The translations under genes were made by a program, and so were the position numbers. Shown piece after piece: positions 1-64,000 of a DNA stretch of 64,000 bases. Source of the stretch: Limosilactobacillus reuteri (GTDB lineage Bacteria > Bacillota > Bacilli > Lactobacillales > Lactobacillaceae); contig NZ_CP059275.1 in the NCBI RefSeq assembly GCF_013694365.1, forward strand, positions 434,001 through 498,000, written 5' to 3'. The notes under the pieces were generated by a model. It was given only the letters and a program-made list of their open reading frames with translations. It ran no database searches and was not told the DNA's origin. Numbering within the stretch: position 1 is the first letter of the stretch; the number at the start of each line of letters is the position of its first letter.

Positions 1-1439
1 CCCATAATGGGCGGGAATTATTTCGGTCGGCAGGTAATAATAATTTACAACAAGTAGTTGCCGCAATTTATGGCGTTCAAGCAGGACGTAAGATGCTTGA
101 GATAAGTGGTGCAGATGATGATTTTAAGGTTAGTGGTTTTGTTTCCTTACCAGAATTAACACGTGCATCACGTCAATATATAACAATCACAATCAACCAT
201 CGGTATATTCGTAATTTTGAATTAACAAAGGCAATTACTCAGGGATATGAATCAAAACTAATGGTTGGTCGTTATCCGATCGCGGTAATTAACATTGATC
301 TGGACCCTGTTTTAGTTGATGTGAATGTCCATCCAGCTAAACGCGAGGTTCGTTTGAGCAAAGAACAGCAATTAATAAAATTGATTGCTGAAACGATTCG
401 GCAGCGGATAGCAGTTGAGAACTTGATTCCGGATGTCGATGCTGACCAATTTATTCCTAATGATGATGAGGTAGCGGACCTTGATCGCCGGTTAAAGGAA
501 GCATCACCTGTTTATCACGCCGCACCGATTTCGGCAGTGCCGGCAACAGAAAAGGCAGCAACTGAGATTTCAACTCCAGCAGCTGATAATCCAGCACATG
601 CTGACGCGCTTGATAGTGAGATTCCAGCACCGATCGTTATCCACCATCTTGAAGATTTAAATACGCCCGCAATGCAAAAATTTGATGAGCGTTATCAAAA
701 TGAAGGTGAAGTTACGCCATTTTCTGCTCCAGTTCCCACTATGACTAAGAAGCCAGTAAAACCTGCAAATATTGAATTGGATGTTCATGATAAACAAGAT
801 CAGCAGCAAAATCGGTTTCCTGATCTTCAATATATTGGTCAACTTCAGGGAACCTTTTTATTAGCACAAGCAGGAGATGGTCTTTACATTGTTGACCAAC
901 ATGCTGCTCAGGAGCGAATTAATTATGAGTATTACCGCCAAAAAATTGGGGAAGTGAGCGCTGATCAGCAAAATTTCTTGGTTCCGCTTGTTCTTAATTA
1001 TTCGACTGTCGACGCAATGACAATTAATCAGCATCTCGATACGCTTGCAGCGGTCGGATTAGAATTAGAGTCATTTGGTCAAAATAGTTTTATTTTGCGC
1101 TCCCATCCAACCTGGTTTAAAGAGGGGCAAGAAGAAGACACGGCCAAAGAAATGATTGATTGGTTAATTAAGAATGGAAAGCTAACCGTCAAAGAATTTC
1201 GAATGAAGACAGCGATTATGATGAGCTGCAAGCGGGCTATAAAGGCTAACCACCACCTTGACGAACGGGAAGCTAAAGCCTTGCTGAAACGGTTGCCGCA
1301 ATGTGAGAATCCTTTTAATTGTCCACATGGGCGTCCGGTAACTGTTCATTTTAATGATCAGGATTTAGAAAAAATGTTTAAACGAATTCAGGATTCACAC
1401 ACCCCATATGCAGACGATTTTGATGATCATGAATTTTAA
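1..1439 (+). CDS. mutL: DNA mismatch repair endonuclease MutL, 3' part only
   Basis: MutL couples MutS mismatch recognition to strand incision. The gene enters the window already open (reading frame from base 3), so the N-terminal ATPase motifs are outside it; about 478 residues are present. The first residues (HNGRELF) belong to the GHKL/transducer domain. A variable linker rich in Pro, Ala and Asp follows, then the C-terminal dimerisation/endonuclease domain with DQHAAQE (from nt 894) and CPHGRP (from nt 1320), the metal-binding motifs of nicking-competent MutL. These show the Gram-positive, MutH-independent type. It precedes ruvA and ruvB, a common lactobacillus arrangement. Confidence 0.96.
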   Translation, partial: HNGRELFRSAGNNNLQQVVAAIYGVQAGRKMLEISGADDDFKVSGFVSLPELTRASRQYITITINHRYIRNFELTKAITQGYESKLMVGRYPIAVINIDLDPVLVDVNVHPAKREVRLSKEQQLIKLIAETIRQRIAVENLIPDVDADQFIPNDDEVADLDRRLKEASPVYHAAPISAVPATEKAATEISTPAADNPAHADALDSEIPAPIVIHHLEDLNTPAMQKFDERYQNEGEVTPFSAPVPTMTKKPVKPANIELDVHDKQDQQQNRFPDLQYIGQLQGTFLLAQAGDGLYIVDQHAAQERINYEYYRQKIGEVSADQQNFLVPLVLNYSTVDAMTINQHLDTLAAVGLELESFGQNSFILRSHPTWFKEGQEEDTAKEMIDWLIKNGKLTVKEFRMKTAIMMSCKRAIKANHHLDEREAKALLKRLPQCENPFNCPHGRPVTVHFNDQDLEKMFKRIQDSHTPYADDFDDHEF

Positions 1440-2039
1440 TTGTACGAATACTTAACAGGCCTTGTAACTGTTGTTGCACCACAATATATCGTTGTTGATG
1501 TTAATGGGGTTGGCTATAAATTATTAGTTGCTAATCCCTATCGTTATCAAGAGGATCGGACTAAGAAGGTCCAAGTATATGTTTATCAAGCAGTTCGTGA
1601 AGATAATATTTCCTTGTTTGGCTTCACAGATCAAAATGAAAAAAAACTATTTATGCAATTAATCAATGTTTCTGGAATTGGGCCAAAGAGTGCTTTAGCA
1701 ATTTTAGCGAACCCTGATCATCAGGGACTTGTTGATGCAATTACTAATAATAATGTTAACTATTTAACTAAGTTCCCAGGAATCGGGAAAAAGACAGCTT
1801 CGCAAATTGTGTTAGACTTACGTGATAAGCTCACTAATGAAAGCAGCAGCTCATTATTTGCAACAACTCAGCTTACCGTTGATGCAACAGTAAATCGTGA
1901 GTTGAAAGATGCTTTGGAAGCATTGGCTGCATTAGGATACAAGGAACGGGATATTAAAAAGGTTCAAAAGACATTAATGAAAGAAGAACAAATGGCAACT
2001 GATGAATACTTAAGACAAGCATTAAGGTTGCTTAACTAG
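1440..2039 (+). CDS. ruvA: Holliday junction branch migration protein RuvA
   Basis: RuvA forms the tetramer that holds a four-way DNA junction and recruits the RuvB motors. At 199 aa it has family length. It has an N-terminal OB-fold (about 1-62), two helix-hairpin-helix motifs ([15 protein letters not shown] near 76-90 and [12 protein letters not shown] near 112) and a C-terminal RuvB-contacting helical domain. The start is TTG, directly after the mutL stop. It is followed by ruvB, as in most Firmicutes. Confidence 0.97.
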
Positions 2040-23066: not shown

Positions 23067-24044
23067 ATGCCGAGTTTTGAAGAAGAATTAGCAAGAATGA
23101 TTCGCAAGCAACCGAGTGACCTATATATCTTACCTTATGATAGGTATTATCAATTATCCTTAGCGATAAGGGGGACCCTATTACCTTTTAAACAGGTTAC
23201 GCGTGACTATGGTCAACGTTTTATCTCATATTTAAAATATTGCGCCAATATGGCAGTTAGTGAGCATCGACGACCCCAGCTAGGCGCTTTTAAATTTACT
23301 TATGCTCACCAAAAGATCAATTTACGCTTATCAAGTGTTGGTGATTATCAAGGGAGGGAATCACTAGTTATTCGCTTTATATATCCTCTTAATGATATTA
23401 GGTTTAATTTTTTAGTTCCTCATCAGTGGGAAAGATTACAGAAATACCGTCAACAACGAGGTTTAATTCTTTTTGCCGGGCCAATGGGGGCTGGTAAAAC
23501 AACTACCATGTATCAGCTTGCTCGACAGCTATTGCCGAAACAAATTGTATTAACAATTGAAGACCCCGTAGAAATTGATCATCCGGGATTTATTCAATTG
23601 CAAGTAAATGAATTAGCGGGGATGAACTATGAAAGTTTATTAAAATTGGGATTACGGCATCGCCCAGATGTATTTATCATTGGAGAAATTCGTGATTCAC
23701 AGACAGCAGCTATGTCTGTCCAGGCCGCATTAAGTGGTCACTTAGTTTTGGGAACTATCCATGCTCGAAATGCTTATGGAGTTGTTTCTCGCCTTCAACA
23801 ATTAGGGATAGATTCTTATTACCTTCAGCAAGTATTAACGGCAGTATCTTATCAGCGTTTAATTCCGTTGGTGAATGGAGAACAAGCCATCTTATGTGAC
23901 CTGTTAAATCGACATCAATTTAGTGGTTTGCTTAGTGGCACCAAGAAAGGAGGAATATCTGATGAATGGTCAAAAGCTCTTCAGCAGGCTGTGGAAAATG
24001 GCGAAATTACGGAGAATACTGCACGTCAATACCAACAAGGTTAA
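23067..24044 (+). CDS. comGA: Competence pseudopilus ATPase ComGA
   Basis: ComGA is the GspE/PilB-type ATPase that assembles the competence pseudopilus. The 325-aa protein shows Walker A GPMGAGKT (138-145), the Asp box IEDPVE, Walker B region IIGEIRD and the His box GHLVLGTIHA. Lactobacillus ComGA commonly lacks the long N-terminal domain of GspE, so the length is typical. Its last 47 bases (23998-24044) are repeated exactly as the first 47 of comGB. Confidence 0.93.
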   Translation: MPSFEEELARMIRKQPSDLYILPYDRYYQLSLAIRGTLLPFKQVTRDYGQRFISYLKYCANMAVSEHRRPQLGAFKFTYAHQKINLRLSSVGDYQGRESLVIRFIYPLNDIRFNFLVPHQWERLQKYRQQRGLILFAGPMGAGKTTTMYQLARQLLPKQIVLTIEDPVEIDHPGFIQLQVNELAGMNYESLLKLGLRHRPDVFIIGEIRDSQTAAMSVQAALSGHLVLGTIHARNAYGVVSRLQQLGIDSYYLQQVLTAVSYQRLIPLVNGEQAILCDLLNRHQFSGLLSGTKKGGISDEWSKALQQAVENGEITENTARQYQQG

Positions 24045-24091
24045 ATGGCGAAATTACGGAGAATACTGCACGTCAATACCAACAAGGTTAA
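23998..24091 (+). repeat. 47-bp direct tandem repeat at the comGA/comGB junction
   Basis: Bases 23998-24044 (the end of comGA, from an internal ATG to its stop) are repeated without change at 24045-24091 (the beginning of comGB). The natural operon would carry these 47 bases once, as the overlap of the two genes. Confidence 0.95.
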
Positions 24092-25079
24092 ATTCAATCA
24101 TCAGCAACAAGCAGATTTTTTCCTTTTATTAGCAGATTTATTAAGTGTTGGCTTTTCTGTCAAAGAAGCACTTGATTTTATCAAGGCTGTCAATCCGAAG
24201 CTAGGTCCTTGGATTGCTTCTATAGATAAACGAATGCAAAAGGGAGCGAGTTTTGCCCAGAGCCTGCAGTCAGAAGTAAAAGACGATTTGTTTTATCAAT
24301 TACTATTAGCAGAAAAGCATGGTAATTTAACAAAAACATTGAGTGAAGTAGGAAAGATACTTACAGCACGAGAACAGCAACGAAAAAAATTATTTAGTCT
24401 CCTGCAATATCCGCTAATTCTTTTAGGGATGCTAGGGGTGGTGATTTGTGGGTTAATTTTGTTTGTTTTTCCAGAATTGAAAGTCTGGCAAGGCGAGAGG
24501 CAAACTTTGCCGCTAATTCACATGATTACGTTAGGAGCAACGTATCTTTTTACCGTTATCTTTATTAGCGCTGTATTTCAGGGGCTAAGATGGCATCAAA
24601 TGAATAAGGAACAACGGCTAATTAAGATCTGTACAATACCGATGATCGGAAAATGCTATTGTTATTATTTTCAATATTATTTAACTAGTATATTAGGATC
24701 AATGTTGCAACAAGGATTATCGTTGGCTGAAATTTGTGAAATTACCCAGAGCTTTGATAGAAAATCAATTCTTTATATTTTTGGTAACAAAATAATGACT
24801 ACTATTCAACATGATGGAGATATTTCAAAAGTGGTGGCTACCTACTCTTTTCTTCCTAATGAATTAATTGTTTTTATGAATAAGGGGGCGACCAGGGAAA
24901 ATATGGGACGGGACTTAATTGTTTTCGCGAATTTAAAATTTAAGGCCCTTACAACTGCAATTGAACATTTATTGATTTTTGTTCAACCAGTTATCTTTAG
25001 CATTATTGCAATCATAATTGTTATTTTATATCTTAGTATCTTATTGCCAATCTGTCATTCATTCCAAGGAGTTTATTAA
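24045..25079 (+). CDS. comGB: Competence pseudopilus membrane platform protein ComGB
   Basis: ComGB is the GspF/PilC-type polytopic platform on which the pseudopilus is built. The 344-aa protein has two T2SSF repeats (about 25-145 and 220-335; FFLLLADLLSVGFSVKEAL and ILGSMLQQGLSLAEI are their openings) and three hydrophobic spans (about 118-141, 162-178 and 308-335). The ATG chosen here lies 47 nt inside the native comGA frame, and that stretch occurs twice in this window. Confidence 0.92.
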   Translation: MAKLRRILHVNTNKVKFNHQQQADFFLLLADLLSVGFSVKEALDFIKAVNPKLGPWIASIDKRMQKGASFAQSLQSEVKDDLFYQLLLAEKHGNLTKTLSEVGKILTAREQQRKKLFSLLQYPLILLGMLGVVICGLILFVFPELKVWQGERQTLPLIHMITLGATYLFTVIFISAVFQGLRWHQMNKEQRLIKICTIPMIGKCYCYYFQYYLTSILGSMLQQGLSLAEICEITQSFDRKSILYIFGNKIMTTIQHDGDISKVVATYSFLPNELIVFMNKGATRENMGRDLIVFANLKFKALTTAIEHLLIFVQPVIFSIIAIIIVILYLSILLPICHSFQGVY

Positions 25080-25391
25080 ATGAAAATTTTAAAGAAAAAA
25101 CAATCAGGCTTCACCTTGCTCGAAATGTCAATCGTCTTATTTATTATTAGCCTACTAGTATTGATTATGCTGCCCAATCTCTCTCAACAGCGAAAGCATG
25201 CTAATAGTATTCATGGAAAAGCGATGACATCTGTAATTCAGACCCAAATTGATGCATATGAAAATGAAAATGGAACTGATAATGTCAGTTTAGAGGAATT
25301 GAATAAAGCAAATTATCTGACTGATGCGCAGGTTCAACAGGCCCATCACGAAAAAATTGTAATTGTTGATGGGAAGGCAATTCAGCGATGA
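25080..25391 (+). CDS. comGC: Major competence pseudopilin ComGC
   Basis: This 103-aa prepilin has a basic leader (KKKQSG), the ComC cleavage site G10/F11, Glu at mature position 5 (Glu15) and a following hydrophobic helix (TLLEMSIVLFIISLLVLIM, from residue 12). ComGC is the main subunit of the DNA-uptake pseudopilus. The preceding gene ends with AAGGAG close to its stop, a plausible native ribosome site. Confidence 0.94.
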   Translation: MKILKKKQSGFTLLEMSIVLFIISLLVLIMLPNLSQQRKHANSIHGKAMTSVIQTQIDAYENENGTDNVSLEELNKANYLTDAQVQQAHHEKIVIVDGKAIQR

Positions 25392-25826
25392 ATGAATTTT
25401 CGTGAAGAAGGGTTTACGTTTCTCGAAGCAATTATTGTTTTAGGAATAACGGCCCTCCTTTTACTAATTACGATTCCAAATTTTACAAAAACGCGTCAAA
25501 AACTAGCTGAAGAACAATTTTGGCAATCATTGCGTCAAGATTGGCAGTGGGCGCAATTAAAGTGTGAGAGTAAACATCAATTTGTTGTAATTCGCCACGA
25601 CAAAAATAACGAAATGATTACTTTTCGTATAAATGATCAAACGAGAGAGACAAAAGAAATCCTTATTCCCTCAACACTGAATGTTGAGTGGTTTGGTGAA
25701 CTTTATCTTACGCCAAATGGCTATACGCGCCCCTGTACCCAGCGTTTTAAATCATTAATCGATGGTCACTATTACTACATGAAGATTCAATTAGGATGGG
25801 GAGGATACCGAATTGAGAAACGCTAA
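25392..25826 (+). CDS. comGD: Minor competence pseudopilin ComGD
   Basis: This 144-aa prepilin has the short leader NFREEG, cleavage before FTFLEAIIVLGI (Glu at position 5) and a hydrophobic helix, then a globular C-terminus (GHYYYMKIQLGWGGY). It is a minor pseudopilin of the DNA-uptake machine. It overlapped comGC by ATGA in the native arrangement; both copies are seen at 25388-25395. Confidence 0.87.
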   Translation: MNFREEGFTFLEAIIVLGITALLLLITIPNFTKTRQKLAEEQFWQSLRQDWQWAQLKCESKHQFVVIRHDKNNEMITFRINDQTRETKEILIPSTLNVEWFGELYLTPNGYTRPCTQRFKSLIDGHYYYMKIQLGWGGYRIEKR

Positions 25827-26117
25827 TTGAGAAACGCTAAAGTAAAAGCATTTATGATGGCAGATAGTTTAATTAGTTTATTTATTGTAGCGATGGGGAT
25901 AAATTTATTTTTTATTTGCGAAAAACAATTGTGGTTACAAAATAGAAATCTTCAGCTAAAAATGGCCGCAACGAGGTTAGGAAAAGAGGCTAGTGATTTA
26001 TATGCGGTTAAAAAGCAATCAGTTATTTTAAGCCGTGGTGATTTAACCGCAAAAGCAACGGTCCAAAGGGTGGTTGTTTATAATAATGATCGATGCCTTT
26101 GTCGGGTTGAAAGATGA
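25827..26117 (+). CDS. comGE: Minor competence pseudopilin ComGE-like
   Basis: This small 96-aa protein has a basic N-terminus (RNAKVKAFMMADSL) and one hydrophobic helix (about 13-30, SLISLFIVAMGINLFFI). The position between comGD and comGF and the prepilin-like start suggest ComGE, although the cleavage motif is atypical (A/F, no clear Glu5). Its TTG start and first 14 bases duplicate the last 14 of comGD (25813-25826). Confidence 0.75.
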   Translation: MRNAKVKAFMMADSLISLFIVAMGINLFFICEKQLWLQNRNLQLKMAATRLGKEASDLYAVKKQSVILSRGDLTAKATVQRVVVYNNDRCLCRVER

Positions 26118-26549
26118 ATGAAGAAGGGGGCCTTTACTTTAATAGAAGCGACTTACGCGTTAATTATTTCTTCATTAGTGATTATCAATATAAGTTTAGT
26201 TACTACTAGCATGAGACAAGTAGGTAAAATGAACTTAGAATCAACAATCACTTGGCATTTGTTTTTACGGGAATTAGAATCAGTCAATCATCGTTTTGAA
26301 TTAATGGAGGTTCGTGATAATTGGTTATTACTGTACAGTCAGACAACTGATCAAAAGTATGAATTAAGAGAAAACCATGCTCTATACCTAACGTGTCAGA
26401 ATAAAGGTGGTTATATGCCATTGTTAGATAACATTAAGAATCATGAATACTCGTTTACGCAACTTGATTCCCAACGAGTATTGATTAAGGTGACAAGGAA
26501 GGATGGAGAGAAAGCAAGTGCAATTGTTAAGTTTTATCCACCAAAATAA
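26118..26549 (+). CDS. comGF: Minor competence pseudopilin ComGF
   Basis: This 143-aa protein starts KKGAFTLIEATYALIISSLVI, a prepilin signal with Ala instead of Gly before the conserved Phe and Glu at mature position 5. A ComGF-like C-terminal domain follows. It is the last comG gene seen; a comGG gene is not present between it and the methyltransferase. Confidence 0.85.
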   Translation: MKKGAFTLIEATYALIISSLVIINISLVTTSMRQVGKMNLESTITWHLFLRELESVNHRFELMEVRDNWLLLYSQTTDQKYELRENHALYLTCQNKGGYMPLLDNIKNHEYSFTQLDSQRVLIKVTRKDGEKASAIVKFYPPK

Positions 26550-30461: not shown

Positions 30462-31115
30462 ATGAATGGGAAATTTGAATTTATTCAGTGGGGAAGAGCA
30501 ATCTTATTGACACTACTTAGTTTAGTTGTTGCAATTAGTATTGCTCTTTTTATCGTTATTAATATCTCACCTTTTTTTATAACAATTCCTAAGCACCTCC
30601 TAGGATTATCTGCCTCTGAATTAATAGCTGATTATGGAAGTGTCATTAAATATATCCAGCTTCCGGCCCAGCGAGTCCTCGAACTAAGATATTTACCAAT
30701 TGCCCCTTCTGCAGTTCACCATTTTGAAGACGTAAAACATTTGATTTTATTGAATGAAGCTGTGATGGTGGTTTCGCTCCCGTTGTTAGTGTTTGGATTG
30801 AAAAAACAAAAACGGCAAAATCAGCTCTGGCGCCTGATTTTACCGTTTCAGATGTTATTTATTTTATTGCTCTTTAGTGGGTTTATGGGGATAACAAATT
30901 TCGATGTCCTTTTTATTAAATTTCATTATCTTTTCTTTAGCAATATGGATTGGCTATTTGATCCACGAACAACGCCAATCATATTGTTGATGCCTGAAAA
31001 TTTTTTTACAGTACTATTTGGATTATGGTTAGGATTTATATTGATAATCTTACTTTTGATCTGGGGATGGATAAAGCTTATGTTAAGCATCTTCTTTAAC
31101 AAAACGCGAACGTAA
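30462..31115 (+). CDS. TIGR01906-type integral membrane protein
   Basis: This 217-aa membrane protein has four hydrophobic spans (about 12-36, 97-111, 122-142 and 182-205), with a predicted outside loop between the first two. It fits the TIGR01906 family found next to yutF and DedA genes in Lactobacillales. No function is known. The start ATG lies 17 nt inside the native yutF frame. Confidence 0.8.
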   Translation: MNGKFEFIQWGRAILLTLLSLVVAISIALFIVINISPFFITIPKHLLGLSASELIADYGSVIKYIQLPAQRVLELRYLPIAPSAVHHFEDVKHLILLNEAVMVVSLPLLVFGLKKQKRQNQLWRLILPFQMLFILLLFSGFMGITNFDVLFIKFHYLFFSNMDWLFDPRTTPIILLMPENFFTVLFGLWLGFILIILLLIWGWIKLMLSIFFNKTRT

Positions 31116-31763
31116 TTGGCAACTCTTATTGATTTTATATTACACATTGATGTTCATCTAATTCAGATTGTTAATCAATTCGGCGATGCAACTTATTTAA
31201 TTTTATTCGCTATTATATTTATTGAAACTGGTGCAGTCATAATGCCATTTCTACCTGGAGATTCCCTTCTCTTTGCTGCAAGTGCACTAGCTGCTGACCC
31301 ACGTTATCATCTTAATATTTGGATTTTTATTTTTATTTTCTTATGCGCCTGTTTGGGTGGAGACTCCCTTAACTTTTTAATTGGTCATAAGATTGGGAAG
31401 AGCCTTTCTAACCACTCACTTTTTGGTAAATTAATTGATAAAGATAGTCTAGAACGTGCCGAAGTCTTCTTTGAAAAGCATGGCGCGCCGGCTATTATTC
31501 TCGCCCGTTTTATTCCGATCATTAGAACATTTGCTCCATTTGCGGCAGCAGGTTCTGGTTTCCCCTACAAGCAATTTATTCGTTATAGTGTAATTGGCTG
31601 TGTTATCTGGGTAGCACTTTGTTGTGGATGTGGTTACTTCTTCGGTAATCTTCCGTTTGTTCAAGAACACTTCTCTGTCATCATTCTTGCAATTATTGTG
31701 GTTACGTTAATCCCAGCCGTTGTCGGAGCATTACGTTCGCGTTTTGTTAAAGAAGATGCTTAA
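31116..31763 (+). CDS. DedA family membrane protein
   Basis: This 215-aa DedA/SNARE-associated-type protein has [58 protein letters not shown] (given here in full family order), and C-terminal membrane helices. DedA proteins are implicated in lipid carrier (undecaprenyl phosphate) transport and envelope homeostasis; the exact substrate here is unknown. It starts with TTG. It is the last protein gene before the rRNA promoter region. Confidence 0.9.
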   Translation: [215 protein letters not shown]

Positions 31764-31843
31764 AAAATCCATGTATAGTAATTACCGTTGTCAAAGCAGT
31801 TAAGTGCTGTTGAGATGTTTAACAAAAAAATTAAAAATAATTG
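31764..31843 (+). other. Non-coding stretch between the DedA gene and the rRNA promoters
   Basis: About 80 bases of A/T-rich DNA after the DedA stop. I see no convincing terminator hairpin with a T-run. It is the first natural-looking intergenic DNA in the window and runs directly into the rRNA promoters. Confidence 0.6.
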
Positions 31844-31872
31844 TTGACATCAACTTGATGACATGATATATT
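31844..31872 (+). promoter_or_regulatory. rRNA operon promoter P1
   Basis: A consensus -35 TTGACA (31844-31849), a 17-base spacer and -10 TATATT (31867-31872), about 270 bases before the 16S start. With the second promoter downstream, this makes the tandem arrangement usual for rrn operons. Confidence 0.85.
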
Positions 31873-31932
31873 AATGAAGTTGCTGATTGAGCTATCAATC
31901 AAAAGAAATTCAAAATTAATTAAATTTTCTTC

Positions 31933-31962
31933 TTGACAAACTGATCTGATATATGTTATAAT
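31933..31962 (+). promoter_or_regulatory. rRNA operon promoter P2
   Basis: A consensus -35 TTGACA (31933-31938), an 18-base spacer and a perfect -10 TATAAT (31957-31962). Transcription would start around 31970 and produce a leader of about 170 bases ahead of 16S. Confidence 0.88.
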
Positions 31963-31999
31963 AAACGTGTTGATTGGCTGCTTGATTAGCCAACGGGTA

Positions 32000-32026
32000 G
32001 ACCTTTGAAAACTGAACAAAGTTTCG
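32000..32026 (+). promoter_or_regulatory. rRNA leader boxA-type antitermination/processing element
   Basis: The sequence CTTTGAAAACTGAACAAAG occurs here. It is the typical Firmicutes rrn leader element containing a boxA-like core, thought to load Nus factors for antitermination. Placement between P2 and 16S agrees with this. Confidence 0.7.
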
Positions 32027-32046
32027 ACGAATCAAATGTGTAGGGT

Positions 32047-32095
32047 CTTCAATCACGATGTGATTTGAAGTAAAACATTTGCGAAGTCAATTCGC
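32047..32095 (+). promoter_or_regulatory. rRNA leader stem-loops
   Basis: Two hairpins are visible: CTTCAATCAC (32047-32056) pairing with GTGATTTGAAG (32060-32070, one bulged base), and GCGAA (32081-32085) with TTCGC (32091-32095). They probably form part of the leader structure that guides 16S maturation. Confidence 0.55.
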
Positions 32096-32142
32096 TTAAT
32101 AACAAAGATAATTGAGAGCTATTCAAGTTCTTGTATGTTTTA

Positions 32143-32484
32143 TATGAGAGTTTGATCCTGGCTCAGGATGAACGCCGGCGGTGTGCCTAATACATGCAAG
32201 TCGTACGCACTGGCCCAACTGATTGATGGTGCTTGCACCGGATTGACGATGGATCACCAGTGAGTGGCGGACGGGTGAGTAACACGTAGGTAACCTGCCC
32301 CGGAGCGGGGGATAACATTTGGAAACAGATGCTAATACCGCATAACAACAAAAGTCGCATGGCTTTTGTTTGAAAGATGGCTTTGGCTATCACTCTGGGA
32401 TGGACCTGCGGTGCATTAGCTAGTTGGTAAGGTAACGGCTTACCAAGGCGATGATGCATAGCCGAGTTGAGAGACTGATCGGCC
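32143..32484 (+). rRNA. Partial 16S rRNA, 5' 342 bases only (duplicated copy)
   Basis: This copy begins TATGAGAGTTTGATCCTGG and ends at GACTGATCGGCC, then the same 342 bases start again at 32485. The two copies appear identical in sequence. It is attached to the natural promoter and leader but stops about one fifth of the way through 16S. It looks like the end of a contig at a collapsed repeat and not a functional gene. Confidence 0.92.
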
Positions 32485-34059
<1,575 letters not shown>

Positions 34060-35025
34060 ATGCACGCCGTGCATGAGTTAGGAAATCAGGTAGCTAAACA
34101 AACTCAAGCAAAAGAACACCAAGCTACTCCTCGCCATATGCCTAAAAATTTAACTATTGAGGGTGATGCCTTTATGATTAAAGGCAAAAAAGAAGTAGGT
34201 CAGCTGACTCTTGTGCACCATTATCGGGTTTATGAGCGAGTAGCTAATCAAATCATTAATCGGCATGACTTTCTCAGTGTTGGGCACCAGGGACGGCTTG
34301 AAGCACGACTAAGTGATTATTTAGACCGCCATTATAAGCTTGCCGGTCAAACGATCTTTTTGGCCAGTGACGCTGGCCCAGGTTACGAACCAGCTAAGCT
34401 ATTAAGTCTAGTTCCTCAAGGTGCACACGGTGAATACTTTCTCGACCGCTATCATTGTTTACAGAAAATTGAACATACTTTAGGCCGGCACAACGAATTA
34501 GCCATGCGAGCAATTAAAGCCGTTCGTCATCATGATCAAGCAGAGCTAACGATAATTTTAGATACTTATGAATCACAAAACTTAACAGAAAAACAAGCAG
34601 ACGACCTAATGCGTTTAAGAAAGTATCTACAGCGAAATTGGCGGTATATCCTCTCGCCACAAATGCGTGGATTTAAGGATATTCATTTAATCGGTTCAGT
34701 CGAAAGTTCTCACCGGGCTTTTACTTACCGAATGAAGAAACAGGGCAAGTCATGGACTGAGCAGGGGGCTAAAGCCATGATTGGTTTAATTGAAGCCCGA
34801 ATGAATGGTCAACTGCAAGCTAGTTTAAATACGATCCTAGAACAATTAACAGTTCTTCCTCGAGTGGCTCAAACCAGCCTATTACAGGAAATGCATATTC
34901 GAACTGGAGAGTTTCTAAGAAAAGCACCGACAAAGCCGTCAATTGGAGCAGTACAAGGAATAATTCCGATTAACACGGCCACAAGTAGACCAATGGGACA
35001 ACTTTTTAAGGCACTAACCCACTAA
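34060..35025 (+). mobile_element. ISLre2-type transposase, 3' fragment, copy 1
   Basis: The 321-aa frame (MHAVHELGNQVAKQ to LFKALTH) is the C-terminal two thirds of an ISLre2/UPF0236-family transposase. Family features are NLTIEGDAFMIKGKK near the start, FLASDAGPGYE in the middle and HLIGSVESSHR with YRMKKQGKSW later. The N-terminal part and both element ends are absent. It begins on an internal Met right after the 16S 3' end, so no native flank is present. It repeats exactly at 35069-36034. Confidence 0.88.
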
Positions 35026-36034
35026 AACTGTATATTTAAAGGCTACCTATGAAAACTTGACAGATACGATGCACGCCGTGCATGAGTTAGGAAATCAGGT
35101 AGCTAAACAAACTCAAGCAAAAGAACACCAAGCTACTCCTCGCCATATGCCTAAAAATTTAACTATTGAGGGTGATGCCTTTATGATTAAAGGCAAAAAA
35201 GAAGTAGGTCAGCTGACTCTTGTGCACCATTATCGGGTTTATGAGCGAGTAGCTAATCAAATCATTAATCGGCATGACTTTCTCAGTGTTGGGCACCAGG
35301 GACGGCTTGAAGCACGACTAAGTGATTATTTAGACCGCCATTATAAGCTTGCCGGTCAAACGATCTTTTTGGCCAGTGACGCTGGCCCAGGTTACGAACC
35401 AGCTAAGCTATTAAGTCTAGTTCCTCAAGGTGCACACGGTGAATACTTTCTCGACCGCTATCATTGTTTACAGAAAATTGAACATACTTTAGGCCGGCAC
35501 AACGAATTAGCCATGCGAGCAATTAAAGCCGTTCGTCATCATGATCAAGCAGAGCTAACGATAATTTTAGATACTTATGAATCACAAAACTTAACAGAAA
35601 AACAAGCAGACGACCTAATGCGTTTAAGAAAGTATCTACAGCGAAATTGGCGGTATATCCTCTCGCCACAAATGCGTGGATTTAAGGATATTCATTTAAT
35701 CGGTTCAGTCGAAAGTTCTCACCGGGCTTTTACTTACCGAATGAAGAAACAGGGCAAGTCATGGACTGAGCAGGGGGCTAAAGCCATGATTGGTTTAATT
35801 GAAGCCCGAATGAATGGTCAACTGCAAGCTAGTTTAAATACGATCCTAGAACAATTAACAGTTCTTCCTCGAGTGGCTCAAACCAGCCTATTACAGGAAA
35901 TGCATATTCGAACTGGAGAGTTTCTAAGAAAAGCACCGACAAAGCCGTCAATTGGAGCAGTACAAGGAATAATTCCGATTAACACGGCCACAAGTAGACC
36001 AATGGGACAACTTTTTAAGGCACTAACCCACTAA
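35026..36034 (+). mobile_element. ISLre2-type transposase, 3' fragment, copy 2 with native flank
   Basis: The 966-bp fragment recurs at 35069-36034. Here the frame stays open upstream to 35027, giving TVYLKATYENLTDT before the shared MHAVHELG, so this copy carries 43 extra native bases of the transposase. It then runs into real downstream DNA. It therefore looks like the start of a contig broken inside an IS. A TTG at 35057 could serve as a start, but the protein is truncated and presumably inactive. Confidence 0.88.
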
Positions 36035-36072
36035 GCATTCTTTTTATGAGTAGTCAATAAACTAGTAGACAT

Positions 36073-36140
36073 GGTATCATTTAAGTGCGTCATTTGACGG
36101 ACATCCTTTCATATAGGTTTGGTTCACTTAATATGATACC
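36073..36140. repeat. Inverted repeat pair near the IS end
   Basis: GGTATCATTTAAGTG (36073-36087) is matched in inverse by CACTTAATATGATACC (36125-36140), with one extra base in the second arm. The 37-base interval contains TTTGACGGACATCC. It could be an operator, a transcript stem-loop or part of the IS terminus. Confidence 0.6.
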
Positions 36141-36146
36141 TGATGT

Positions 36147-36170
36147 CACGCCGAATGGCGTTTTTTATTT
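36147..36170 (+). terminator. Probable intrinsic terminator
   Basis: ACGCC (36148-36152), loop GAAT, GGCGT (36157-36161) followed by a run of T residues. The 5-bp GC-rich stem plus T-run is a short but plausible rho-independent terminator after the transposase fragment. Confidence 0.6.
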
Positions 36171-36218
36171 ACCACCAACTGGGTGGCTAACTTCATTCTA
36201 TAATCCACCAATTTATTT

Positions 36219-36332
36219 ATGTCAGTAAATAAATTAAACGTTTTTAACGTTACCGCTAACTGGAACGAATTAGATCAAGAATGCGCAGCAGCTGAATTAG
36301 CACTAATTAGCGAAAGTATAAATAAGAAATAA
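36219..36332 (+). CDS. Small hypothetical protein, 37 aa
   Basis: Starts ATG after A/T-rich DNA and encodes MSVNKLNVFNVTANWNEL followed by an acidic/alanine-rich end (ECAAAELALISESINKK). I do not recognise it. Its stop abuts the next small frame exactly as the other genes do, so it was probably annotated as a gene in the source. No ribosome binding site is obvious upstream. Confidence 0.45.
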   Translation: MSVNKLNVFNVTANWNELDQECAAAELALISESINKK

Positions 36333-36464
36333 ATGCGTAAAGCACACCCATACGGCGTACAAGGCCGTCGCCCAATCGCTTCAAAGTACAAGCGAGCATT
36401 AAAAGAAAAGAAGATCGAAGCTATTCGTAAGTGGGCTAAGGAAAAGCCAGCTGAAGAAAAGTAA
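36333..36464 (+). CDS. Small basic hypothetical protein, 43 aa
   Basis: Encodes MRKAHPYGVQGRRPIASKYK and continues with a Lys/Glu-rich helix (KEKKIEAIRKWAKEKPAEEK). It is strongly basic, with a patterned helix that could bind nucleic acid. I do not recognise the family; phage or plasmid-type small proteins look like this. It ends directly at the start of the broken transporter gene. Confidence 0.45.
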   Translation: MRKAHPYGVQGRRPIASKYKRALKEKKIEAIRKWAKEKPAEEK

Positions 36465-37685
36465 ATGCTTGAGTTTTTAAAACCAGCTCCAGTGGCGAAG
36501 AAAAAGGTTCCTGCTGATAAGGTTGAAAGTTCGTATCATTGGCATCAGTTAGGAGTATTGCTTGCAATTTGTATCGGTTACATTGGCTATTATATTATTC
36601 GTTTAATTTTCATAACCGAACAAAATGAAATTATGAAGCAGTATGGTTTTACCACGGCTGATATCGGAATGGTACTTTCGTGTTTTGGGATTGGTTATGG
36701 GATTTCAAAATTATTTATGGGAGCATTAAGTGATAAAAGCAATACTAACCGTTATTTAGCAACTGGATTGGTTATTTCTGCACTGCTTAACTTTGACTTA
36801 GGCTCTACCCGTAGCCTATATATGATGATGTTTCTAATGTTAATTATGTCGATTGCTCAAGGGATGAGGGCAGCTGCATGCCAGCGTTCTGTTCAATTAT
36901 GGTGAATGTTTTCAGGTTCCATTTCTACTGCCTTTTATACATCTTCAGTGGTTTCGCTGATTATTGCGGCCTTTGTATTATTAGTGGGTGCTGATCGGCC
37001 GGTGAGTGTTGGGCTGCCAAGTATTTCTGAATATACCGGAGATGAAGTTGTTTTAGAAAACGGAACTGAGTCTGATTCTGAAGAGACGAGTCTGACTTTA
37101 CCGCAAATTTTTGTTAAATATATTTTGACGAATAAAGTTGTGTGGGCCATTACTCTAACATCAATGTCCTTGTATTTGGTTCGTTACGGGATAATGAGCT
37201 GGATTCCAAGCTATCTTGTAGAATCAAAAGGCTTTACGACTAACTTTGCAAAGTGGTTAGTGGGTATTTTTGAACTTGCGGCGGTTCCAGGAGTAATTAT
37301 TATGGGAGCAATTTCCGATGCATTAAAGGGACGTCGAGCTATTGTTTGTATTTTATGTGTAATTGGTTTATTTATTTGTTTGACAACGTATTTCTTTAGT
37401 ACCAGTCACATTTTGATCGTAAGTGTTCTTTTTATTATGGGAACTTTAATTTGCGCCCCATTAACATTAGTTGGATTAATGGTTAATGAAGCAGTTCCTA
37501 AATTTGCAGTAGGTTCATCAACTGGATTTATGGGCTATTTTTGGTGATTGGTAGCTAAATATGGCTGGCTTGCAAGTAATATGGTTTTATATACTGCTTC
37601 AGCGTTAGTATTTATCTTATTAGTTTATATTTTTATTGCTGAGCGTCGAGCTGAAAAGATAGTCGATGCTGATAAAAAAGATTAA
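36465..37685 (+). pseudogene. Broken organophosphate:phosphate antiporter (GlpT/UhpT-like MFS), three fragments
   Basis: Three frames in a row encode parts of one transporter: 36465-36905 (N-terminal six-helix start, with FFxxYGISKLFMGALSDKSN-like sequence, ending RSVQLW then TGA), 36906-37547 (helices 6-11, ending GFMGYFW then TGA), and 37548-37685 (TTG start, KYGWLASNMVLYTAS to the C-terminus). Intact relatives run continuously, with QLWWG-like sequence at the first break, and are about 450 aa. Roughly 50 residues around the first joint and a few at the second are missing. It reads as a gene with two nonsense mutations whose pieces were annotated separately. Confidence 0.85.
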
Positions 37686-38279
37686 ATGAATTTAGTACCT
37701 ACTGTCATTGAGCAATCATCTCGTGGTGAACGTGCTTATGACATCTACTCACGGCTTCTGAAGGACCGTATCATTATGCTCTCTGGTCCAATTGAAGACG
37801 AAATGGCAAATTCAATTGTTGCGCAACTTTTATTCCTTGATGCGCAAGATTCAACTAAAGATATTTATTTATACATTAATTCACCTGGTGGAGTTGTTAC
37901 CTCAGGAATGGCAATTTATGACACCATGAACTTTATTAAGGCTGATGTTCAAACTATTGTAATCGGAATGGCTGCTTCGATGGCCAGTGTATTAGTATCA
38001 TCTGGTGCTAAGGGTAAGCGTTTTGGATTACCACACTCACAAGTTTTGATTCATCAACCATCTGGTGGAGCTCAAGGTCAACAGACTGAAATCGAAATTG
38101 CTGCTACTGAAATTTTGAAGACACGGAAGATGCTTAACGGAATCCTTGCTAAGAATTCTGGTCAACCTATCGAGAAGATCCAGGCTGATACTGAACGTGA
38201 TCATTACTTGACAGCACAAGAAGCAGTAGATTACGGCTTACTTGATGGTGTAATGGAAAATAATTCAAAATTAAAGTAA
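37686..38279 (+). CDS. clpP: ATP-dependent Clp protease proteolytic subunit
   Basis: ClpP is the serine peptidase that works with ClpX/ClpC/ClpE in protein quality control. The 197-aa protein has the catalytic Ser in [10 protein letters not shown], His in [18 protein letters not shown] and the Asp region ([11 protein letters not shown]). It has normal length. CtsR control would be expected in lactobacilli but no upstream DNA is present. Confidence 0.98.
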
Positions 38280-38351
38280 GCGCCCTTAGTGTAATGGATC
38301 GCACGTGAGATTCCGGTTCTCGAGATCCGAGTTCGACTCTCGGGGGGCGCA
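38280..38351 (+). tRNA. tRNA-Arg (anticodon CCG)
   Basis: A 72-nt cloverleaf: acceptor GCGCCCT pairs with GGGGCGC (one T-G), anticodon stem TGAGA/TCTCG encloses loop TTCCGGT with anticodon CCG, and the T arm is CCGAG-TTCGACT-CTCGG. Discriminator base A; CCA is not encoded. It would read codon CGG. A tRNA-Arg next to clpP and the gap operon is a known lactobacillus position. Confidence 0.93.
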
Positions 38352-41315: not shown

Positions 41316-42638
<1,323 letters not shown>

Positions 42639-49469: not shown

Positions 49470-50054
49470 GTGCGACAATTATATATTCGCGATCGTTCAA
49501 GTGATTTACATGGAACGACCGTCATTCGCGATAAGAATGGTAAATCGTGCTATCTTCTTGTCGGTAAGTGGGGAATGAGGTACGATGCCCTATCATTGTA
49601 TGCAATTGATGGAGCCTTATTAGCTGAAGTAAAGCAATTAACTCTTGGACTGTTACCCAAATTCGCATTATATGTTAATCGACAACGCGTTGGAACAATT
49701 GGGAAAGGTCTTGGATTTGTTCAACAGGTTATTTATATTCGCGGTATTAACTGGATCGTTGTTGGTTCACCATTAACAAGCCGTTACCGTGTTTTTTCCG
49801 GTAGTCACTTAGTTTTTTCAATTCAACCCGTTAAACTATCAAGCGGATATTGTCATGAATTAAAGATAAATAAAAAAGAAGATGAACCTTTAGCAATTCT
49901 AATCGCTAGTATTCTTAACCATTGGGCTCGACGAAGTGAACAAGAACCTTTATTAGCACGATTAATGAAGCGTTCCCCTAATCTTAATACCAGCATGTCA
50001 TTTTCAATTAGCAATCAGTTAAACTTAAACTGTAAAGAACGTAGAAACAAATAG
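49470..50054 (+). CDS. LURP-one-related family protein (probable)
   Basis: This 194-aa soluble protein is rich in beta strands: MRQLYIRDRSSDLHG, CYLLVGKWGMRYDALSLYAIDG, LLAEVKQ and INWIVVGSP. The start and strand pattern resemble LURP-one (YxjI-type) proteins of Firmicutes, which adopt a tubby-like barrel and have no established bacterial function. It starts with GTG and lies between smpB and ung. Family call is moderate. Confidence 0.6.
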   Translation: MRQLYIRDRSSDLHGTTVIRDKNGKSCYLLVGKWGMRYDALSLYAIDGALLAEVKQLTLGLLPKFALYVNRQRVGTIGKGLGFVQQVIYIRGINWIVVGSPLTSRYRVFSGSHLVFSIQPVKLSSGYCHELKINKKEDEPLAILIASILNHWARRSEQEPLLARLMKRSPNLNTSMSFSISNQLNLNCKERRNK

Positions 50055-52688: not shown

Positions 52689-53111
52689 ATGACAGATATT
52701 AATCTTAAAGGTGGAAAACTAAGTATTGAACAACTTAATACTATTTTTGAAACCATCCCCGTAGAATTCGATTTCATTGATGAAAATGATATCATTCGCT
52801 GGTCATCAGCTAATCGGCATCGTTTATTCAAGCGAACGGATGCAGACTTAGATAAACATGTGCTTGAGGTTCATCCCGGGCATAGTCAAGGCCATGTTAA
52901 GCAAGTACTTCATGATATGCATAGCGGAGACCGTGATTCAATTAGCATTATGATCAAGCATCATGGTCAACCTGTAAATATTGCTTTTTATGCCTTACGT
53001 GATGATCAAAATAAATACCTTGGATGTGTAGAGGTAACGCAAGATGTTAGTAAACAGCAAACAAAGGGATCCTTCTGGCGAAACATTATGCAAGTCCTAC
53101 ATAAAAAATAA
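52689..53111 (+). CDS. PAS domain protein (DUF438/PAS_10-like)
   Basis: This 140-aa protein is a stand-alone PAS module: LNTIFETIPVEFDFIDENDIIRW, LFKRTDADLDKHVLEVHPGHSQGHV and LGCVEVTQDVSKQQ (each shorter than the family block). It resembles the C-terminal PAS of DUF438 proteins, where HP-containing motifs like VHPGHS are conserved. No kinase or effector domain is fused. It might sense a small ligand or redox state; the partner is unknown. Confidence 0.75.
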   Translation: MTDINLKGGKLSIEQLNTIFETIPVEFDFIDENDIIRWSSANRHRLFKRTDADLDKHVLEVHPGHSQGHVKQVLHDMHSGDRDSISIMIKHHGQPVNIAFYALRDDQNKYLGCVEVTQDVSKQQTKGSFWRNIMQVLHKK

Positions 53112-53648
53112 ATGAATTTTATAGCAATGGACTTTGAAACTGCTAATGGTAAGCGTTACAGTGCATGTTCGCTCGCACTCACAATCGTTCGGAATGGACA
53201 AATTGCCGACGAATTTTACACCCTAATTAATCCTCATACTAAATTCTTTTGGCGTAATACACAGATCCACGGTATTCATGAACGTGACGTCCAAAATGCG
53301 CCTGATTTTCCAGAAGTATGGGAACATATCAACCAATTCTACACTCCTGATAAATTAGTTATTGCCCATAATAATCGATTTGATAATAGCGTTTTAAGGA
53401 ATACGTTAGAACATTACAATATCGAAGTCCCCGCCTACCAGACGCTCGATACCGTTGCTTCAAGCCGCCAGTTGATTCCAGGATTAACAAATTATAAACT
53501 TAATACTGTTTGTGACGCGTTAAATATTGACCTTCATCACCACCATAATGCTCTTGATGATGCCCAGGCTTGCGCTAACATTCTGCTTTATCAAAGCAAG
53601 CATTTTACCCCACAACAGATTCAGCCCTTTATTAATTTAATCGGCTAA
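53112..53648 (+). CDS. DEDDh 3'-5' exonuclease (DnaQ-like)
   Basis: This 178-aa exonuclease has Exo I MDFETAN (6-12, Asp7 and Glu9), Exo II NRFDNSVLRN and Exo III HHHNALDDAQA, with His and Asp typical of DEDDh enzymes. It is the stand-alone epsilon-like type, not fused to a polymerase or a helicase. It could function in DNA repair or RNA turnover. Confidence 0.9.
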   Translation: MNFIAMDFETANGKRYSACSLALTIVRNGQIADEFYTLINPHTKFFWRNTQIHGIHERDVQNAPDFPEVWEHINQFYTPDKLVIAHNNRFDNSVLRNTLEHYNIEVPAYQTLDTVASSRQLIPGLTNYKLNTVCDALNIDLHHHHNALDDAQACANILLYQSKHFTPQQIQPFINLIG

Positions 53649-58073: not shown

Positions 58074-58090
58074 ATGGGCAAGGACACTAA
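58044..58090 (+). promoter_or_regulatory. Native ribosome site and duplicated start at cdaA/cdaR
   Basis: GGAGG at 58044-58048 stands eight bases before ATG 58057, which opens ATGGGCAAGGACACTAA (58057-58073). The same 17 bases recur at 58074-58090. The ribosome site therefore serves the first copy of the start codon, not the second. Confidence 0.85.
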
Positions 58091-60329: not shown

Positions 60330-62150
60330 ATGTGTGGAATTGTTGGAGTTACAGGAACTGACAAGAGTTTGTCAATTCTAATTGATGGATTAAAGCGTCT
60401 TGAATATCGTGGATATGACTCTGCAGGAGTTTATGTTAATGATCAACAAGGACATGATTACCTTGTAAAGCGGCCAGGTCGGATTGCTAATCTAGAAGCG
60501 GCTCTTGGAGAAGAAGTCCATGGTTTAGCCGGTATTGGCCATACCCGGTGGGCTACTCATGGTGAACCAAATGAAGCCAATGCTCACCCTCAATACTCTC
60601 AAGACGAACGGTTCTACTTAGTTCATAACGGTGTAATTGAAAATTATGCTGACTTAAAGAAAGAATACTTATCTGACGTTAAATTTGTTAGTCAAACTGA
60701 TACAGAAGTAATTGTTCAATTAGTTGATAAATTTGTAGTTGAATCTGGAATGTCAACAGAAGCAGCCCTTCTTAAGGTTCTTCGTTTAATCAGCCCAGAT
60801 TCTTCATATGCATTTGTATTGATGGATAAAGAACAACCAGATACATTATTTGTTGCTAAAAATAAGAGTCCATTATTAGTTGGGATTGCTGATGGTTACA
60901 ACATGGTTGGTTCTGATGCAATGTCAATGATTAAGGAAACTAATACCTTTATGGAAATCGGTGACCACGAGTTGGTAATCGTTAAGCCAGATCACGTTAC
61001 TGTTAAAGACTTTGATGGTAATGAGATTGATCGGCCAACATTTAAGGTTGATATGGATGCTAATGCCGCAGATAAAGGTGCTTACCCATACTACATGTTA
61101 AAGGAAATTGACGAGCAACCAGCTGTTATGCGGAAGTTAGTTCAAGAATACTTTGGTGACAATGATGTGGCACAGATTAATGAAGAGATGTTAAAAGATA
61201 TGGCAGATGCTGACCACCTTTACATCGTTGGTGCCGGTACAAGTTATCATGCTGGCTTAGTAGGTGCGCGCATTTTTGAAAAACTTTGTGGAATTCCTAC
61301 ATCTGTTCACATTTCATCAGAATTTGCTTATGAGCAACCACTCCTTTCTAAGAAGCCGTTCTTTATCTTCTTAAGTCAAAGTGGTGAAACAGCTGATAGT
61401 CGGGAAGTACTGGTTAATGTTAATAAGCATAACTGGCCAAGCTTAACAATTACTAATGTTGACAAGTCAACGCTTTCTCGTGAAGCAACTTACACTGAAT
61501 TACTTTACGCTGGTCCAGAAATTGCCGTGGCTTCAACAAAAGCCTATACTGCCCAAATTGCTGTCGAAGCTATTCTTGCTCAAGCATTAGGCGTTTACAT
61601 GGATAAGCAAGCAGCTAAAGACTTTGATGTTAAGCACCAATTAGGATTAGTTGCTAATGGTATGCAATCAATCACTGATAGCGAGAAGAAAGTAGAAGAA
61701 ATTGCTTCTCGTTATCTCTCTAAATCTCCAAGCGCCTTCTACATTGGCCGGGGAATGGATTGGTCAGTTTCACTTGAAGCTGCTTTGAAGTTAAAGGAAA
61801 TTTCATATGTTCAAGCAGAAGGCTTTGCATCTGGTGAATTAAAGCATGGAACAATTGCTTTAATTGAAGATCAGACTCCAGTGATTGGAATCATTACCCA
61901 AGACCGGACTGCTGGTTTAACACGGAGCAATCTTGAAGAAACGCAGGCTCGTGGGGCCAATGCAATTACAATTGTTTCACGGCACCTTGCAAAAGAGGAC
62001 GATACATTCGTTCTTCCCGATGTCGATGAACTGTTAACACCACTTCTTAGCGTAATTCCAGCACAATTGTTGGCTTACTACACTAGTCTTGGTAAGGGAC
62101 TTGATGTTGATAAGCCACGTAACCTCGCAAAGTCTGTTACAGTTCAATAA
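60330..62150 (+). CDS. glmS: Glutamine-fructose-6-phosphate aminotransferase
   Basis: GlmS makes glucosamine-6-P from fructose-6-P and glutamine. The 606-aa protein has the N-terminal glutaminase with nucleophile Cys2 (MCGIVG), RYRGYDSAGV-type RLEYRGYDSAG and HTRWATHG, and two SIS domains (SQSGETADS; ASTKAYTAQ). No glmS ribozyme is seen ahead, as the gene abuts glmM, so its absence is not informative. Confidence 0.98.
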   Translation: MCGIVGVTGTDKSLSILIDGLKRLEYRGYDSAGVYVNDQQGHDYLVKRPGRIANLEAALGEEVHGLAGIGHTRWATHGEPNEANAHPQYSQDERFYLVHNGVIENYADLKKEYLSDVKFVSQTDTEVIVQLVDKFVVESGMSTEAALLKVLRLISPDSSYAFVLMDKEQPDTLFVAKNKSPLLVGIADGYNMVGSDAMSMIKETNTFMEIGDHELVIVKPDHVTVKDFDGNEIDRPTFKVDMDANAADKGAYPYYMLKEIDEQPAVMRKLVQEYFGDNDVAQINEEMLKDMADADHLYIVGAGTSYHAGLVGARIFEKLCGIPTSVHISSEFAYEQPLLSKKPFFIFLSQSGETADSREVLVNVNKHNWPSLTITNVDKSTLSREATYTELLYAGPEIAVASTKAYTAQIAVEAILAQALGVYMDKQAAKDFDVKHQLGLVANGMQSITDSEKKVEEIASRYLSKSPSAFYIGRGMDWSVSLEAALKLKEISYVQAEGFASGELKHGTIALIEDQTPVIGIITQDRTAGLTRSNLEETQARGANAITIVSRHLAKEDDTFVLPDVDELLTPLLSVIPAQLLAYYTSLGKGLDVDKPRNLAKSVTVQ

Positions 62151-62462
62151 GTGGAAGAACAACACGAAACGTTAACATTAATTGAGGAAATTACCCGTAA
62201 TGACGGCTCAAAATATTATGAAATTGGTAATATGGTTCAAAATGGGCGTGCAGAATTAGCAGCTGAACGGGATTTTATTAAAGAGGTTCGTATTTTAGAA
62301 CTAAATATCCCTCATTCTAAAAATGTTATTAAATATGAACACTTTATAAATACTCACTATAAGATGCAAACTGAAGCAATGGATCATTGGGAAGAATGGA
62401 AACGTCCCCCAGAGATTGAAGAGGTTGTTCAAACGATCTTAAAAGAAAATCATATTGGGTAA
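62151..62462 (+). CDS. Unrecognised small protein, 103 aa
   Basis: I do not recognise this protein. It is soluble and acidic, starts with GTG (MEEQHETLTLIEEI) and has the segments YYEIGNMVQNGRAELAAE and HYKMQTEAMDHWEEWKRPP. There are no cysteines and no membrane segments. It lies between glmS and an O-acetyltransferase gene. Confidence 0.7.
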   Translation: MEEQHETLTLIEEITRNDGSKYYEIGNMVQNGRAELAAERDFIKEVRILELNIPHSKNVIKYEHFINTHYKMQTEAMDHWEEWKRPPEIEEVVQTILKENHIG

Positions 62463-64000
62463 ATGAAGCCAAATTTTAATCCATCACAGGGGATGAAGTC
62501 GCACTATTTCGTTACAGGGATAGACGGCTTACGAACATTAGCTGTCTTAGGAGTTATTATTTACCACCTATTGCCCAATGTTTTAATGGGTGGTTATTTA
62601 GGAGTGCCGCTTTTTCTATTAGTCTCTGGATATTTTGTAACCTATCAATTTAGTCGGCAGCTTAAATATGGTGGTCATATTAATTTAGGGCACTTTTATC
62701 TAAAAAGGTTTCGGAGACTATATCCGACATTAATTGCGATGTTAATTTTAACAACAGCGTACATTACATTATTTGCACGAGAGCTACTCCATAACATTCG
62801 GGCGGTAATTGTTACTAATTTAACTTGGATATATAATTGGTGGGAAATCAGTCATGGCCAGTCCTACTTTGATCAGTTTGGTGGCGTTTCACCTTTTACC
62901 CATCTTTGGACATTAGGGGTTGAAGCGCAATTTTACCTTTTGTGGCCTTTGATTATTACGTTGTTATTTGTGGTTTTTAAAAAGCTACAGAATGTGCGAC
63001 GGGTAGTTTTCATATTAGCTGTATTGTCAGCAATAGAAATGGCTCTTCTTTACGATCCGGCAAATATCAACCGGGTTTATTATGGAACCGATACACGGGC
63101 CTTTTCACTTTTACTTGGCTCATGGTTAGGGCTTGCGTGGCCATTAAATCGACTTCGACCTAATTTACAGGCAAGTAGTCGCCGTTTACTTAATATTATA
63201 GGAATTATTGCAACAGTATTGACTATTGTTGGCTTTTTCTCATTGAATGGGCAGTCCACCTTTACCTACCGTGGGGGAATGTTTCTCTATAGTTTTATTG
63301 GAATGATATTAATGGCTACTATCATTCACCCAGGTGCGGGGATGAACAAGTGGTTTACAAATCCGATTTTTCATTGGGTTGGGCAGCGTTCTTATGGGAT
63401 TTATGTTTATCAATATCCTGTTATGGTTTTTTATGAACGATTAATCAATGTCGGCAATCATCCACTTCTCAATGCATTCGTGGAAATTATTATTATTTTA
63501 GTAGTAAGTGAAGTTTCTTACCGGTTAATTGAACGACCATTTGCCCAGTATCAGTGGTCAAAATTACCGGCTGATCTTCAGCATGTGTTAGAAACGCATC
63601 ACTTTAGTTGGCAAAGCGGGGCTAAAATGATGGTAAGTGCATTAGTTGTTGTTGTTGCATTTATTGGTTTTTGCCAGCCAAATCGTGCACCAAAGAAAAC
63701 AGCGGTTCAGCAACGGATAGAGCAAAATCATCAGGCTGCTGAAGAACACAATAAGAAGATTGCAAGGGGTGATAATGTTGCAGAAGCTAGTGGTAATACT
63801 TCTAAGCTTCAGAAACAGTATGATTTAACTCCGGCGCAAATAAAAGCAGCGCAGAAGTTAAAGGTAACGGCCATCGGTGATTCGGTGATGGCTGATGCCG
63901 CAGATAGTATTCAGAAATTAATGCCAAATGCTTATGTTGATGCACAAGTTGGGCGTCAAGGTTCTGCGGCTCCTGATGTTATCAAACAATTAAAGGCAGA
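62463..64000 (+). CDS. oatA: OatA-like peptidoglycan O-acetyltransferase, 5' part
   Basis: The frame is open to the end of the window (512 codons) with no stop. It begins with the acyltransferase-3 signature GIDGLRTLAVLGVIIYHL, and has LGVPLFLLVSGYF, FYLKRFRRLYPT, HLWTLGVEAQFYLLWP and about ten hydrophobic spans. A linker and the opening of a C-terminal SGNH esterase domain follow (AIGDSVMADAA). OatA acetylates MurNAc and gives lysozyme resistance. OatA versus another acyltransferase is decided by the SGNH domain. Confidence 0.88.
   Translation, partial: MKPNFNPSQGMKSHYFVTGIDGLRTLAVLGVIIYHLLPNVLMGGYLGVPLFLLVSGYFVTYQFSRQLKYGGHINLGHFYLKRFRRLYPTLIAMLILTTAYITLFARELLHNIRAVIVTNLTWIYNWWEISHGQSYFDQFGGVSPFTHLWTLGVEAQFYLLWPLIITLLFVVFKKLQNVRRVVFILAVLSAIEMALLYDPANINRVYYGTDTRAFSLLLGSWLGLAWPLNRLRPNLQASSRRLLNIIGIIATVLTIVGFFSLNGQSTFTYRGGMFLYSFIGMILMATIIHPGAGMNKWFTNPIFHWVGQRSYGIYVYQYPVMVFYERLINVGNHPLLNAFVEIIIILVVSEVSYRLIERPFAQYQWSKLPADLQHVLETHHFSWQSGAKMMVSALVVVVAFIGFCQPNRAPKKTAVQQRIEQNHQAAEEHNKKIARGDNVAEASGNTSKLQKQYDLTPAQIKAAQKLKVTAIGDSVMADAADSIQKLMPNAYVDAQVGRQGSAAPDVIKQLKA

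Follow-up and report, generated by a model that had tools for sequence, protein, structure and literature searches.

The window analyzed here, a 64,000-nucleotide stretch covering positions 434001-498000 of a 2,085,667-bp single contig, is almost certainly part of a single-contig "genome" joined from extracted annotation features rather than a natural chromosome. Intergenic DNA is missing, the strands have been normalized, gene overlaps stand twice, the RNA classes that were not kept are not found, and the same layout extends across the sampled assembly. Nothing was found in favor of a natural layout. The features would have come from a Limosilactobacillus close to L. reuteri and L. balticus that had been annotated as a draft assembly. 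They would have been taken in chromosomal order and joined without spacers, each written on its own coding strand except for the repeat regions, which keep the orientation of the contig. The feature table may have been of the RASTtk/PATRIC kind (CDS, tRNA, rRNA, and repeat region), and a feature FASTA may then have been mistakenly submitted, or else parsed, as a single sequence.

The plus strand of the window is tiled by open frames, and each start codon abuts the preceding stop codon. Zero-spacing junctions were counted where a stop codon is followed, with no base in between, by a start codon and the frames to either side are both 60 amino acids or longer. The window was found to contain 66 such junctions on the plus strand and 0 on the minus strand, or 10.3 per 10 kb. 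The same script applied to 80 loci of relatives returned 44 junctions in 1,549,863 bases (0.28 per 10 kb), with at most 4 in any one locus, and thus the density in the window is approximately 36-fold higher. In five stretches of L. balticus that are syntenic with the window, 1 zero junction was found in 83,787 bases. A Shine-Dalgarno-like motif was located within 20 nucleotides before the start codon for 5 of the 69 coding sequences in the window, versus 42 of the 69 orthologues in L. balticus. The original prediction that all genes lie on the plus strand with next to no spacing is therefore borne out by the junction counts.

In the region of ruvB, blocks of the window align at about 93-96% DNA identity with L. 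balticus BG-AF3-A and L. reuteri WF-AA1-C; the blocks aligned with L. caviae and L. caccae are less similar. The alignment blocks in this region end at the gene ends, where each relative carries a longer spacer. The gene order of the window is shared with L. balticus over all of the stretches compared and with L. reuteri WF-AA1-C around ruvB, the only region compared for that strain; unlike the window, both of these genomes have ordinary intergenic DNA. The reference for the junction test was the set of L. balticus draft contigs rather than a complete L. reuteri genome. The window was split by hand into 79 features with 78 boundaries, and 75 of the features have an orthologue in the syntenic L. 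balticus stretches. These 75 follow three L. balticus contigs without rearrangement. The four features with no L. balticus orthologue are the 16S rRNA, two element pieces, and the piece at 36035-36217; among the matches listed for the L. balticus draft there is no full 16S match, and contig C53 of that draft terminates inside the rRNA leader. Placement succeeded for 72 of the 78 boundaries; five of the other six touch the four features without orthologues, and one falls between two contigs. The comparison used feature ends at 36218 and 36334 in place of the proper ends at 36219 and 36332, and the gaps next to 36465 are approximate due to merged matches, neither of which affects the sign of any gap.

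At 59 of the 72 placed boundaries, L. balticus has intergenic DNA that is absent from the window, with lengths from 1 to 450 nucleotides (median of 90) and a sum of 6,711 nucleotides; at 9599|9600 and 6944|6945, for example, the L. balticus spacers are about 0.27 and 0.26 kb long. The remaining 13 boundaries are gene overlaps in L. balticus, and none of the 72 is exactly zero. Both strands are in use in L. balticus across the span of the window, whereas the window uses the plus strand only, and 10 of the 75 placed features, including the tRNA-Arg, read from the opposite strand in that relative. The alignment proposed in the original prediction as a check for missing DNA and flipped genes thus came out as anticipated.

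The 13 overlaps provide a further and stronger test, one that the original prediction did not name. If features are cut out singly, the bases common to two genes must appear twice. All 13 of the L. balticus gene overlaps were found to stand twice in the window, base for base and at the same length: 47, 33, 17, 17, 14, 14, 11, 8, 4, 4, 4, 1, and 1 nucleotides, for 175 bases, where the two 1-nucleotide overlaps have no evidential weight alone. At the 59 non-overlapping boundaries, which served as the control, a match of 4 nucleotides was found at two and a longer match at none. The longest case is at 23067-25079 on the plus strand, where the last 47 nucleotides of 23067-24044 are identical to the first 47 nucleotides of 24045-25079 (47/47), and the L. 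balticus orthologues overlap by 47 nucleotides. At 30462-31763, also on the plus strand, the features 30462-31115 and 31116-31763 each end in 33 nucleotides that are reverse complements of one another (33/33); the L. balticus orthologues of these two features are convergent and overlap by 33 nucleotides. The two genes that share the 11-nucleotide overlap are both encoded on the opposite strand in L. balticus, and the shared bases recur at the outer ends of the two window features. We know of no natural process that yields such doubled overlaps. Together with the missing spacers and the flipped features, they support the proposal, made previously, that annotated genes were extracted, oriented, and joined. 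The segment from 23067 to 26549 is a run of overlapping coding sequences in which the natural overlaps of 47, 1, 4, 14, and 4 nucleotides are each doubled; 24045-25079 within this run has a T2SS F domain, and we take the run to resemble a competence pilus (comG-like) operon.

All of the features in the window are written on the plus strand. Positions 1-31763 hold 40 joined coding sequences, the first of which is cut by the edge of the window, in the order of L. balticus contigs C55 and C53; the natural order is kept, strand and spacing are lost, and 5 of the 40 are on the other strand in L. balticus. These are followed by an inserted repeat piece at 31764-32484, composed of 379 nucleotides of the rRNA leader and the first 342 nucleotides of the 16S rRNA, with stops in every frame. 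The complete 16S rRNA at 32485-34057 (Rfam SSU model 1-1533, placed at 32482-34057) repeats the preceding 342 nucleotides, and 34058-34059 probably belong to the piece after it. The coding fragment at 34060-35025 (321 amino acids; Pfam UPF0236) comes from a repeated, putatively transposase-like element. A second inserted repeat piece at 35026-36218 contains the same 966-nucleotide fragment again at 35069-36034, with 43 nucleotides before it and about 184 nucleotides after it. The joined coding sequences at 36219-38279 consist of 36219-36332 (which L. balticus has in reverse orientation), 36333-36464, three pieces of an MFS transporter, and 37686-38279. At 36465-37685, a single MFS transporter gene appears as three coding sequences; the intervening DNA, which measures about 96 and 40 nucleotides in L. 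balticus, is absent from the window, so the gene has probably been disrupted in this strain and annotated piecemeal. The tRNA-Arg (ccg) at 38280-38351 has zero spacing to its neighbors on both sides. The remainder, 38352-64000, holds 27 joined coding sequences in the order of L. balticus contig C66, the last of which is cut by the edge of the window; L. balticus carries those at 49470-50054, 52689-53111, and 53112-53648 on the opposite strand. The window was originally read as genes only, and it does consist mostly of genes, but that description leaves out the repeat pieces inserted at 31764-32484 and approximately 35026-36218.

The pieces that are not in the sense orientation of a gene look like "repeat region" features written in the orientation of the contig. 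All four of those examined have other copies in the assembly, and three have a partner with the same ends to within a few bases; in the three same-ended pairs, both copies are flanked by zero-spaced features. At assembly positions 1306186-1307758, a 16S rRNA in the sense orientation is followed, at zero spacing, by a 721-nucleotide piece of leader and 16S in the antisense orientation (1307759-1308479) and then by other DNA. This piece has the same length as the one at 31764-32484 of the window, with one end exact and the other within 1 nucleotide. At 1199031-1199334, a 159-nucleotide piece with two tRNAs on the minus strand precedes the same two tRNAs on the plus strand; its partner at 2023380-2023538 (98.7% identical and of the same length) lies between zero-spaced tRNAs. 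The third pair is formed by a piece of approximately 180 nucleotides at about 1714878-1715057, with tRNA-Leu and tRNA-Gly on the minus strand, and a 177-nucleotide partner at 2016484-2016660, again between zero-spaced tRNAs. For 35026-36218, no same-ended partner was found in the assembly, only shorter copies, and three more copies of the rRNA leader (at assembly positions 1547171, 1474526, and 1918279) are shorter as well, at 230-345 nucleotides. The first 144 nucleotides of the assembly form a perfect inverted pair, a partial gene followed by the reverse complement of the same DNA.

Several other origins for these pieces were considered. A real tandem duplication of the 5' end of the 16S rRNA (32143-32484 and 32485-32826) was rejected, as was one of the element fragment (34060-35025 and 35069-36034); in each case, one copy looks like a repeat feature and the other like a gene feature drawn from the same DNA. 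Spurious coding sequences were rejected for 31764-32484 and for the piece at approximately 1714878-1715057, both of which contain stops in all three frames of the strand as written. Whole short contigs fit parts of the assembly tail but do not account for the same-ended pairs, and thus repeat regions are preferred. No single sorting rule was found for the placement of the repeat pieces among the genes that they overlap: the gene comes first at 34060 and at assembly position 1, and the repeat comes first at 1199031.

The join extends well beyond the window. Eighteen stretches of 20 kb were sampled from the assembly, two of which overlap the window. Each of the 16 that lie outside the tail contains between 10 and 29 zero junctions, every one on the plus strand, and the two tail stretches contain 3 and 2. 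The earlier conclusion that genes had been joined in the window thus stands, with a wider scope that takes in repeat regions and affects the whole assembly.

Coding sequences, tRNA, and rRNA are retained in the assembly, and other RNAs are not. The class B RNase P RNA was not found in the assembly; it was found in 11 of 13 other members of the genus (9 of 11 and 2 of 2), and the two without a match are drafts. A full-length tmRNA was not found either, the best match being 22 bits and under the cutoff, versus 9 of 11 other genus members above the cutoff. Given that RNase P RNA is missing from 2 of the 13 and tmRNA from 2 of the 11, each of these absences is weak evidence alone. For the T-box, the assembly has one weak match (40.6 bits, with a cutoff of 93), compared to 21-32 matches (E ≤ 0.001) in each of 11 other genus members, and 26 and 24 in the near relatives G020 and G016. 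This sole match at E ≤ 0.001 is at assembly positions 1768127-1768277 and spans a 38-codon open reading frame, zero-spaced between two coding sequences; it probably survived only through having been called as a coding sequence. The seeming lack of RNase P RNA, tmRNA, and T-boxes from this record is most likely false. There are 81 tRNA matches in the assembly versus 39 and 44 in the two near relatives, which are drafts; the surplus may reflect duplication here, loss from the drafts, or both. Many of the tRNA genes abut at zero spacing, for example those at 2016265-2016337, -2016410, and -2016483.

As for the annotation that supplied the features, the record shares with a concatenated feature FASTA (.ffn-like) the ordered features on their coding strands, the zero spacers, the doubled overlaps, and the lack of unannotated DNA, but differs from it in also holding repeat pieces in contig orientation. 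As tabulated in PMC11602494 and PMC11171008, RASTtk annotations list CDS, repeat regions, tRNA, and rRNA, and their rows for partial CDS and, in one of the two papers, for miscellaneous RNA read 0. The feature classes in the record, with CDS, tRNA, rRNA, and repeat regions in and RNase P, tmRNA, and nearly all T-boxes out, suggest a match to a RASTtk-style table. Counting against such a table are the lack of a same-ended partner for 35026-36218, the three shorter leader copies, and the placing of the repeats among the genes, for which no rule was found. A join from another source, such as a Prokka or NCBI PGAP gene list, is rather unlikely. That reading draws on the missing sorting rule and on the fact that only the feature classes are visible and not the history of the record. 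Prokka annotates tmRNA, and PGAP annotates it together with RNase P and SRP; neither RNase P nor a full-length tmRNA turned up in the assembly, and the repeat pieces are present, both of which argue against these two sources.

The tail of the assembly (2045001-2085000) contains many short element fragments that occur twice, frequently as adjacent pairs, in direct or inverted orientation, with repeated lengths near 125-129 and 253 nucleotides. These lengths suggest contigs with k-mer overlaps from a short-read draft. The abundance of repeated and variant element fragments in this region (2.045-2.085 Mb) could also be accommodated by a pan-genome or species consensus, in which the genes of several strains were joined for a reference database. 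Such an origin is very improbable since the 75 placed features are collinear with three contigs of one natural genome, that of L. balticus, and the contamination is listed as 0.96. The tail pieces that were read, in which a contig-like piece is followed by a gene fragment located on it, are better explained by a draft that includes short repeat contigs. A natural chromosome so compact that it lacks intergenic DNA and carries every gene on a single strand, which takes the zero spacing and single strand as the literal sequence, can be dismissed as virtually impossible, given that the overlaps of neighboring genes are doubled (one as an inverted copy), that no RNase P RNA was found in the assembly so that the tRNAs present could not mature in the ordinary way, that Shine-Dalgarno-like motifs precede so few of the starts, and that spacing is ordinary in relatives about 95% identical to the window.

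With a joined feature list as the preferred explanation, no biological inference can be drawn from the record's spacing, strand use, gene overlaps, promoters, riboswitches, adjacent duplications, or copy number of elements. The warning in the original prediction that strand and spacing are unfit for inferences about operons or regulation is upheld by the doubled overlaps, the missing spacers, and the flipped features. The marker-gene completeness is listed as 100 (with a contamination of 0.96), and such a measure is blind to the removal of intergenic DNA. It is conceivable, at somewhat less than even chance, that this record belongs to a wider class of joined feature lists deposited as public prokaryote assemblies, which pass marker-gene checks as complete single-contig genomes and put false signals of zero spacing, one-strand coding, and missing RNA into comparative data sets. 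A search of the literature, covering titles and the openings of abstracts, found no described case of such a joined record, and one may still be in print. The number of zero-base stop-start junctions per 10 kb provides a simple screen for records of this kind. The single gene sequences are usable one by one, and their order agrees with that of a natural relative.
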